From positions 1 to 41,135 of the forward strand of contig CALVEB010000018.1 of NCBI GenBank assembly GCA_944326465.1: 41,135 bases of DNA, given 5' to 3'. Below, in pieces: positions 30,503-31,539 of the stretch. The notes beneath the pieces were generated by a model. The model was not told where the DNA came from. It ran no database searches and worked only from the letters and a program-made list of their open reading frames with translations. Source of the DNA: Candidatus Gastranaerophilales bacterium (GTDB taxonomy: Bacteria > Cyanobacteriota > Vampirovibrionia > Gastranaerophilales > Gastranaerophilaceae). The position numbers were made by a program, and so were the translations under genes. The first letter of the stretch is position 1; each line of letters starts with the position of its first letter.

Positions 30503-30802
30503 ATGAAAACTTATGAGTTACTCGCAATATTTAAACCGAATTTAGATGCTGAAGAAATCGACAAAGCAATTGAAAAAATTACAGCATCAGTAGTTGAATT
30601 TAACGGAAAAGTAGAATCTACAGACAAAATTGGCAGAAAAAAACTGGCCTATGAAATCCAGAATTTCCGTGACGGATTTTTTGTATCATCAGTTTTGTCA
30701 ATACCTGCAGAAAACGTAGCTGAATTCAGACGCCAATTAAGACTTAATGACAACATTTTAAGAACAATGTTTATGGAAGTCGCTGCTAAAGCTAAAGCGT
30801 AG
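30503..30802 (+). CDS. rpsF: Ribosomal protein bS6
   Basis: A 99-residue protein beginning MKTYELLAIFKPNLD with the bS6 ferredoxin-like core (GRKKLAYEIQNFRDGFFV, LNDNILRTMF). It binds S18 and 16S rRNA in the small-subunit platform. AAGGAG precedes the ATG. The order rpsF-ssb-rpsR is the usual bacterial cluster. No S6:S18 autoregulatory motif is evident in the 50-base leader. Confidence 0.97.
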   Translation: MKTYELLAIFKPNLDAEEIDKAIEKITASVVEFNGKVESTDKIGRKKLAYEIQNFRDGFFVSSVLSIPAENVAEFRRQLRLNDNILRTMFMEVAAKAKA

Positions 30803-30874
30803 AAAAGCGTAAGCGCGCTCTCAGAAATATTATTTCAAGGCTTATAGATGATGGCTTGAATAAAGTTTATGTAG

Positions 30875-30894
30875 GTTGGGCTTTCCAGCCCAAC
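30875..30894. repeat. TGTAGG-type palindromic intergenic element
   Basis: GTTGGGCT/AGCCCAAC with a TTCC loop, preceded by TGTAG. A similar element with different stem bases occurs at 31951-31973, so these look like members of a dispersed hairpin family. Confidence 0.45.
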
Positions 30895-30895
30895 A

Positions 30896-30984
30896 AAAAT
30901 AAAGCCGGCAACAAGGTAACCGGCGAGGTACAAGAAAATCAAATGAAAGGCGGCTTACGGGGATCGTAGGCTATGGTGAAAAAA
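30896..30984 (+). repeat. ssb leader duplication, copy 1
   Basis: An 89-base unit repeated at 31051-31140 with about five differences, three of them C-to-T. Both copies keep a hairpin GCCGG...CCGGC and a second one, GGCTTACG...CGTAGGCT, and end in ATGGTGAAAAAA. The 66 bases between copies continue the frame from this ATG as a 33-codon reading frame (30973-31074) with no known product. Confidence 0.85.
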
Positions 30985-31074
30985 CAGGTGCGAGGGATAA
31001 GTCCCGAGAGATTTGAAAAATTTCTTCGAAAGACACCCGAGTGCGTTGACAAAATAAAGCCGGTAACAAGGTAA
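30973..31074 (+). CDS. Possible 33-codon reading frame in the ssb leader
   Basis: From the ATG in the first leader copy a frame runs MVKKQVRGISPERFEKFLRK and on to TR, then stops inside the second copy. It shares its first four codons and upstream AGG with the longer ssb start. It may be a leader peptide made by duplication of the ssb initiation region, or a chance frame. No homology is recognised. Confidence 0.25.
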   Translation: MVKKQVRGISPERFEKFLRKTPECVDKIKPVTR

Positions 31075-31140
31075 CCGGCGAGGTATAAGAAAATTAAATG
31101 AAAGGCGGCTTACGGGAAATCGTAGGCTATGGTGAAAAAA
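31051..31140 (+). repeat. ssb leader duplication, copy 2 (contains a possible ssb start)
   Basis: Second copy of the 89/90-base unit, ending exactly where the ssb gene begins. The hairpin GCCGGT/ACCGGC (6 bp) is slightly longer than in copy 1. It includes the ATG at 31129, which is in frame with ssb. Confidence 0.85.
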
Positions 31141-31539
31141 ATGTCAGTAGCAAAAGCAGTAGTAACAGGAACAGTATACAGAGCGCCGGAAAAACGGTTT
31201 ACACAGAACAATATTGCAGTTTCAGCATTTGTTTTGAACATAGGCGAAAGAAACGAAATATTAATCCGTGTTGTATCAAGACGAAACAGCCTTGATGAAA
31301 TAGTATCATCACTTTCAAAAGGTGATAGAGTGCTGGTTGAAGGCCGACTCCAGACTAATACAGTAAAAACTGACGACGGTGCGGAACGCAGAATATATGA
31401 AATTGATGCGAATGCAGTAGAGAAATTGTCAGGCGGAGCATCTGTTTCATCAGGTGTTTCAAGTGCTGATGACATTGTTAAGTTTGAATCGGATGATTTT
31501 TCAAACGAATTAATCAATGAGGACGAGATCCCGTTCTAA
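31141..31539 (+). CDS. ssb: Single-stranded DNA-binding protein
   Basis: A 132-residue OB-fold protein: AVVTGTVYRAPEKRFTQNNIAVSAFVLNIG, a VEGRLQT loop, and the acidic C-terminal tip NEDEIPF that recruits repair and replication proteins. It is short compared with common SSBs of 150-180 residues, because the linker is short. The ATG at 31141 (MSVAKAV) fits the family start; an in-frame ATG at 31129 with AGG upstream would add MVKK. The start lies at the edge of a duplicated leader. Confidence 0.93.
   Translation: MSVAKAVVTGTVYRAPEKRFTQNNIAVSAFVLNIGERNEILIRVVSRRNSLDEIVSSLSKGDRVLVEGRLQTNTVKTDDGAERRIYEIDANAVEKLSGGASVSSGVSSADDIVKFESDDFSNELINEDEIPF

Follow-up and report, generated by a model that had tools for sequence, protein, structure and literature searches.

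The intergenic stretch between rpsF and ssb in a member of Candidatus Gastranaerophilales is probably made up of one complete and one half copy of a structured RNA repeat of about 159 nt that is dispersed and lineage-specific, an old and slowly spreading element that has been adopted as a 5' leader. The window analysed here is the whole 41,135-nt contig CALVEB010000018.1 (assembly GCA_944326465.1). Direct support comes from the repeat family itself and its limits among the sampled genomes, from a hairpin designated P1, from the sense placement of the unit at gene starts, and from relatives whose corresponding sites lack the unit, the gap between the flanking genes being longer where it is present. 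Small bacterial repeats are often viewed as neutral or parasitic filler of tolerant gaps. This unit lies mostly against start codons in the sense orientation, often between same-strand genes and before core genes; if it acts, a dispersed repeat can rewire core-gene translation across a lineage of bacteria whose regulation is little studied.

The upstream gene, which we take to be rpsF (30503-30802, forward strand), owes its name to an earlier reading of the sequence rather than to a family search, and its orthologues were found by similarity. Downstream lies ssb (31141-31539, forward strand; alternative in-frame start at 31129), whose best family matches are SSB models at scores below the curated cut-offs. 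The stretch between the two genes is presumably transcribed within the rpsF-ssb message. Within it, 30896-30961 and 31051-31116 are 95% identical over 66 nt at an offset of 155, a match far beyond chance, and 30963-30984 and 31119-31140 are identical over 22 nt at an offset of 156, the shift reflecting one base inserted between the two blocks. The 66-nt block contains three substitutions, each a C in copy 1 and a T in copy 2, and the copies differ further at a GGGGATC/GGGAAATC step. Two hairpins fold in the sequence of both copies, the first of them pairing differently in the long-range fold. The first-pass annotation had described a duplicated unit of about 90 bases, offset by 155, with both hairpins kept and three C-to-T differences; the duplication, the hairpins and the substitutions all proved real, and the size did not, since alignment of 31 units gave a true length of about 159 nt. 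The repeated 90 nt represent the 3' part of this unit and its 5' part (30982-31050) sits between the two copies, so that the layout is half a unit followed by a whole one. Copies elsewhere align across the supposed spacer, confirming that the window carries a whole unit preceded by the 3' half of another. The upstream, 5'-truncated unit (3' half only) occupies 30896-30984 of the forward strand and is matched by the covariance model R1, described below, over 30860-30984 (E 2.2e-11), and the complete 159-nt unit occupies 30982-31140 on the same strand (156.5 bits), this sequence being among those from which R1 was built.

All parts of the complete unit lie on the forward strand. The lower stem of P1 is formed by GUGCG (30988-30992) and UGCGU (31042-31046), and the upper stem, which covaries between copies, by GGG (30994-30996) and CCC (31036-31038), capped by a variable top (30997-31035) whose length is very different among copies. 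A conserved linker, UGACAAAAUAAAGCC, follows at 31047-31061; the proposed partner of its GCC is the GGC at 31104-31106 or, locally, that at 31077-31079. Next come a 3' hairpin, GCUUACG/CGUAGGC (31108-31127), with a nearly invariant 3' arm (GUARGCU), and a Shine-Dalgarno-like GGTGA with an A-rich spacer (31131-31140). This GGTGA is the unit's own 3' end and the nearest Shine-Dalgarno-like site to ssb in the window. At 31129-31143 the unit tail also gives ssb an extra upstream in-frame start (MVKK), and some copies at exbD, rplU and rpmA extend the frame in a comparable way.

A search of the same genome with 30880-31160 as the query recovered two further loci. On contig C14 one unit precedes an exbD/tolR-like gene, and on contig C26 an array separates rplU from rpmA; copies were also found in relatives, so the unit does extend beyond this locus, a point the first-pass annotation had proposed checking. 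Contig C26 ends inside the rpmA array (L005, 5000-5322), indicating that arrays may break short-read assemblies and that copy numbers may thus be underestimated. In the 31 aligned units the order of parts is AAACAGGTGCGAG, a variable hairpin, CCCGAGTGCGTTGACAAAATAAAGCC, a variable stretch, AAAAGGCGG, UCGUARGCU and the tail. The model R1 was built from an alignment, A1, of 28 units: six of the 31 first units were left out, namely L030 and L040:1474 with chimeric 3' ends and the near-duplicates L026, L013:2211, L044:1699 and L046:1502, and three were added (L027 twice, L041). With seven candidates scored per genome under strict filters in both surveys, R1 matched 56 of the 383 genomes sampled from the same family, in 9 of 41 genera, and 37 of the 386 in a phylum-wide sample, 36 of these 37 belonging to that family. 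The exception, a lone weak match in G588, lies by eye inside coding sequence and was set aside. Within the sampled genomes and seven scored candidates each, the unit is so far family-specific, and the 327 of 383 family genomes without a match under these filters indicate that any function is dispensable. Deeper scoring of eight genomes (E<=0.01) gave between 5 and 22 matches per genome, and the lowest-scoring of them may be fragments or chance hits. The present genome has six, five at the three loci and a partial one on contig C5 (E 0.007). An exact 24-nt core pattern was found in 14 stretches in named genomes, entitled Candidatus Gastranaerophilales (10), 'uncultured bacterium' (3) and Heliobacteriaceae (1). 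The split rpoC1/rpoC2 genes of the relatives match cyanobacterial-type models.

The unit does not correspond to a known RNA family in Rfam 15: across the whole window nothing reached the gathering score, and a 481-nt query had three matches at E-values up to 10 (1.6 to 4.3), whose scores were well short of gathering. Searches for a phage, plasmid or viral origin returned no blastn match in phages and plasmids at the sensitivity used and none in viral contigs with two exact patterns, which are narrow tests. No description of the repeat was found in the open-licence literature searched.

Folding of the unit into a conserved structure is best documented for P1, in which the GUGCG/UGCGU lower stem is followed by an internal loop (A opposite GAG) and then by the upper stem. 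The lower stem is nearly invariant and carries little information on pairing. The upper stem occurs in many compensatory forms (GGG/CCC, AGGG/CCCU, GGAG/CUCC, GAGG/CCUC, GCGG/CCGC, GGAA/UUCC, GCUG/CAGC and GGUG/CACC), and its pairs 1 to 4 form in 39, 39, 35 and 25 of 41 distinct combinations, levels reached when partners were shuffled in 12, 0, 1 and 0 of 2000 trials, respectively. Among 79 distinct inserts the mean stem was 3.29, compared with 2.40 for shuffled arms and a maximum of 2.71 in 1000 shuffles; the insert pattern gave no insert for 31 of the 112 copies. Although the shuffle control keeps relatedness, so many kinds of pair are not easily accounted for without conserved pairing. The variable top of P1 is reduced to GGAGCGAAGCUCC in L027. 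Outside P1 there are near-invariant blocks, and the pairings are weak. For the 3' hairpin the effect is small (mean 4.80 vs 4.61; 1 of 300 shuffles reached the observed value, 54 copies). A middle hairpin, GCCGGU/ACCGGC, was rejected as a general feature, being present in some copies only and having its observed mean reached in 16 of 200 shuffles (84 copies). The proposed GCC/GGC pairing fits a paired change in 70 of 74 distinct copies (GCC with GGC in 37, GC plus another base with AGC in 33) but follows clades, and a further 37 copies do not have the motif as written. Column covariation (APC, 87 copies) is dominated by relatedness. Folding z-scores for six single units were -3.4, -2.3, -3.7, -2.7, -3.8 and -0.5, the window unit giving -3.4 and the L045 unit being no stabler than shuffles (-0.5). 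The unit thus has the many dispersed intergenic copies per genome expected of a small interspersed structured repeat, with conserved structure at P1 only. Of the two readings offered by the first-pass annotation, a 'mobile RNA-like repeat' is the better because copies are scattered through single genomes as well as across genomes and the hairpin covaries.

Placement of the unit is strongly biased. From 119 R1 matches, 112 were retained after removal of five second views (L030, L040 twice, L045 twice) and two partial matches (L013, L124), and these form 96 arrays at 85 loci, with one full match in 82 arrays, two in 12 and three in 2. Relative to the unit, the upstream and downstream genes are oriented ++ in 64 arrays, -+ in 12, +- in 10 and -- in 8, one flank being unknown in the remaining two. 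In 68 of 96 arrays the unit's 3' end is no more than 60 nt from a sense start, the position directly 5' of a gene that characterizes cis-regulatory RNAs; the corresponding count for an antisense gene start, taken from the 5' end over the same 60 nt, is 4 of 96 (binomial p 5e-16, with orthologous loci counted as independent). As the arrays derive from hits of selected genomes and include recurring orthologous loci, the counts are not independent, and a few of the starts, which come from a home-made caller, are wrong (e.g. L143, L149, L157 and, through a short gene that escaped the caller, L125:1503). In 45 of the 68 sense-start arrays the start is within 5 nt of the unit end, and in the other 23 the unit ends 6-48 nt upstream of it. 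At distant starts such as those of rpoC1 and rpmA, a canonical AGGAG usually follows the unit, so the Shine-Dalgarno sequence is not supplied by the unit there.

These counts bear on the proposal that the unit is a purely selfish, BOX-like intergenic repeat without effect that survives only in tolerant gaps. The distribution is patchy and limited to one lineage, copy number is variable, and 14 of 96 arrays hold two or three full matches, all as such a repeat might be expected to behave. In the study of BOX, RUP and SPRITE repeats of Streptococcus pneumoniae (PMC3049150), a parasitic origin is argued for BOX-type repeats, which are, like the unit, small, dispersed, structured, variable in copy number, confined to one lineage and devoid of machinery; the comparison is one of description. 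BOX elements are over-represented between convergent genes according to the same study (PMC3049150), whereas the unit favours the sense position before start codons (68 of 96 arrays, against 4 antisense), is often found between genes of one strand (both neighbours sense in 64 of 96) and lies between convergent genes in just 10 of 96. The idea of a common dispersed repeat with no effect on ssb therefore holds as regards dispersal, but the placement is not that of a neutral repeat, and the selfish explanation is unlikely. A parallel in placement is provided by the TAACTGA direct repeats that precede start codons in Beggiatoaceae and Cyanobacteria, which also lie a few nucleotides from the starts of unrelated and in some cases essential genes, and for which a post-transcriptional role has been proposed (PMC4679880). 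Those repeats are 7-nt units with little Shine-Dalgarno character, whereas the present unit is about 159 nt long, folds and often ends in a Shine-Dalgarno-like sequence. The build of the unit is like that of BOX-type repeats, and its placement like that of TAACTGA repeats.

Proximity to a start varies with the unit tail, although the tail classes are patterns set after the data were seen. None of the 19 arrays with a hairpin tail of the GGAGCGGCTACGCTCC type, mostly from genus g7, lies at a start, as compared with 5 of 7 arrays with a TACGTA-palindrome tail and 63 of 70 with the remaining tails, here termed SD-like. Nine arrays, again mostly from g7 and with GGAGCGGCTACGCTCC-type tails (L029, L046, L100, L103, L109, L118, L119, L121 and L141), end 3-13 nt from the stop of the opposite gene, as if units of this type near opposite stops had been reused as two-way terminators or trailers. 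A palindrome tail of the CTACGTACGTAG type precedes rpmA, ahead of the native Shine-Dalgarno sequence, at L111, L114, L137, L140 and L144, and occurs with no start nearby at L142 and L146.

The genes downstream of the 68 start arrays belong to 37 families. Thirty of these were scanned for names, from partial sequences and with many scores below curated cut-offs: SSB, TolR/ExbD, L27, L21, RpoC1, RpoC2, S3, S19, YebC, PurH, S11, S4, SecY, L11, DnaK, ClpX, L17, L9, RecA, AtpG, TolQ/ExbB, Hcp, MtnA, an oxoacid oxidoreductase subunit, S17, dihydroorotase, CarA and YchF were recognized, and two of the scanned families had no match. With units at the starts of so many families, the notion of a regulatory duplication controlling ssb is too narrow, although a cis effect on ssb is plausible from the position of the unit. 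A broader version of this notion is that the unit is a true cis-regulatory RNA, riboswitch-like or protein-binding, that governs a set of growth genes and has been inherited vertically with frequent loss. Six of the 37 families recur in two or more genera (rpmA, exbD, rplU, rpoC1, rpoC2 and one unnamed), and genera g1 and g7 share four where 0.065 would be expected for an assumed 1000 genes. Ribosomal proteins make up 10 of the 30 scanned families, which together with two RNA polymerase subunits is above expectation by our judgement. The near-invariant blocks outside P1 and the grouping of rpmA copies from g7 and g11 in the copy tree also fit such an RNA. Yet g16 and g20 have at most one downstream family in common with any other genus, g20 by itself contributes six of the ten ribosomal genes, most genomes of the family have no unit, and the 19 of 96 arrays with a hairpin tail have no start nearby. 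On balance we regard such a vertically inherited regulator as unlikely, the lean towards ribosomal genes making it slightly less so. The unit does have an affinity with lineage-specific structured RNA candidates identified by comparative genomics, in that it is a conserved structured RNA without a known ligand (PMC2864571); it falls outside the Rfam 15 families.

The copies appear to have both spread within genomes and persisted at old sites. Mean identity is 65% between copies of the same genome and 57% between genomes, but in G141 and G206 same-genome copies are no closer to each other than to copies from different genomes (56% and 57%), which indicates that part of the copy history is old. 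In a midpoint-rooted tree of 100 copies, read without support values, the g7 and g11 rpmA copies form their common group, the rpoC1 copies of the same two genera lie near each other, and the rplU and rpmA copies of g1 are nested among them. Within-genome likeness together with the cross-genus families suggests either within-genome spread combined with old shared sites or a set of preferred targets. About 100 nt upstream of the unit, judged by eye, are common to the ssb and exbD leaders of G002 (L009, L014), implying that longer composites were moved or copied.

Sites with and without the unit bear on its arrival. Across 27 rpsF-ssb loci from 28 genomes, the gap measures 309-504 nt in four loci with a unit and 1-136 nt (median 18.5) in 22 loci without one; a fifth unit-bearing locus, L178, begins inside the array and was left out of the measurement. 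G005, the sole genome of the same genus without a unit, already has a 104-nt gap at ssb. At rpoC1, compared in 11 loci from 13 genomes of genus g11, the unit lies immediately upstream of the native AAAAGGAG in five. By eye, three loci without it (L205, L209 and L211) have a hairpin, a short A-rich stretch and the same AAAAGGAG site, and three others (L201, L204 and L207) have other sequence there. At rpoC1 there is A-rich sequence on either side (ACAAAA and ATAAAA), suggestive of what may be a short target duplication. Of the features of a MITE, the rpoC1 sites offer similar, A-rich flanks, with no terminal inverted repeat seen by eye. The occupied and empty sites at ssb and rpoC1 differ between species rather than strains, and as there is no clear target-site duplication or terminal inverted repeat, insertion is deduced from presence and absence between species. 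In the leaders of exbD in G005 (L217) and G154 (L219), short stretches resemble by eye the unit's 3' half with no full unit present, and are perhaps remnants of lost copies. Leaders with the unit have neither a stronger nor a weaker Shine-Dalgarno sequence at ssb, exbD or rpoC1. At ssb the mean anti-Shine-Dalgarno match was -5.2 kcal/mol with the unit (n=5) and -4.9 without (n=21; L198 yielded no ssb start), computed with an assumed anti-Shine-Dalgarno sequence rather than one read from this genome. The exbD means are not clean, L215 having been scored as lacking a unit that its leader contains.

With regard to origin, the unit could be a non-autonomous relic moved by a Y1 transposase (IS200/IS605, REP) or by a reverse transcriptase (group II intron), an idea compatible with a repeat adopted as a leader. 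The unit is dispersed and stranded, has hairpins and A-rich flanks, and bears at its 5' end GUGCG, which is reminiscent of group II introns. Co-occurrence points the other way: of 22 unit-bearing genomes, 7 have Y1_Tnp and 12 have RVT_1 (in one case as a weak, broken match), and among 124 genomes lacking the unit the counts are 43 and 53, although such tests are blind to machinery that has since been lost. The three Rfam matches up to E 10 also include no group II, HEARO or IS605 RNA. A REP/IS200-type Y1 partner thus shows no association, and derivation from a group II intron finds neither a match to group II RNA models nor an associated RVT_1, making this account of the origin quite unlikely.

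The first-pass annotation had also noted a 33-codon frame opening at the first ATG, and the frame is indeed open (30973-31074, forward strand). A leader peptide encoded there, regulating ssb by attenuation or coupling, is nonetheless highly improbable. Other copies are open for 23-40 codons and L007 has the same C-terminal residues as the window frame, but among the 16 copies with such a start, identified by pattern, the frames run from 8 to 40 codons in different registers, with no conservation between copies, and in the closest ssb orthologue, G001, the frame is shifted past the variable loop. The conserved short frame of a leader-peptide attenuator is therefore not found. A scan for promoters and terminators gave nothing above chance, and no terminator-like site is present in 30700-31300. 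The ATGGTGAAAAAA taken as a peptide start is more simply read as the Shine-Dalgarno-like GGTGA and A-rich spacer that, in the downstream copy, precede the ssb ATG.

For the repeat adopted as a leader, the comparisons suggest a course of events in which the unit would spread by inserting itself where A-rich sequence lies close to a ribosome-binding site, and copies would persist where the 3' end, a hairpin followed by GGTGA or GGTATAAA and an A run, can sit in the translation-initiation region of the gene that follows or shortly before it. In many copies the tail is probably used for initiation, and tandem copies would be gained and lost by recombination. We infer a regulatory effect of the unit on downstream genes from its sequence and position, most likely a modest one in cis, in which hairpins adjacent to the start influence how the downstream cistron is translated or processed. 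A bolder reading, which is possible though not probable, is that the unit is a transposable 5' leader that enters in the sense orientation at initiation regions, becomes part of the leader of essential genes and places unrelated genes under shared control at the RNA level. In many copies it would then serve as a ribosome-binding module, for ssb, ribosomal proteins and RNA polymerase subunits, in Gastranaerophilales.

A second dispersed repeat, with the hairpin GTAGGTTGGGCTTTCCAGCCCAAC, lies at 30871-30894 of the window and abuts the truncated unit, and related copies adjoin or sit within unit arrays of relatives (L007, L011 and L018).
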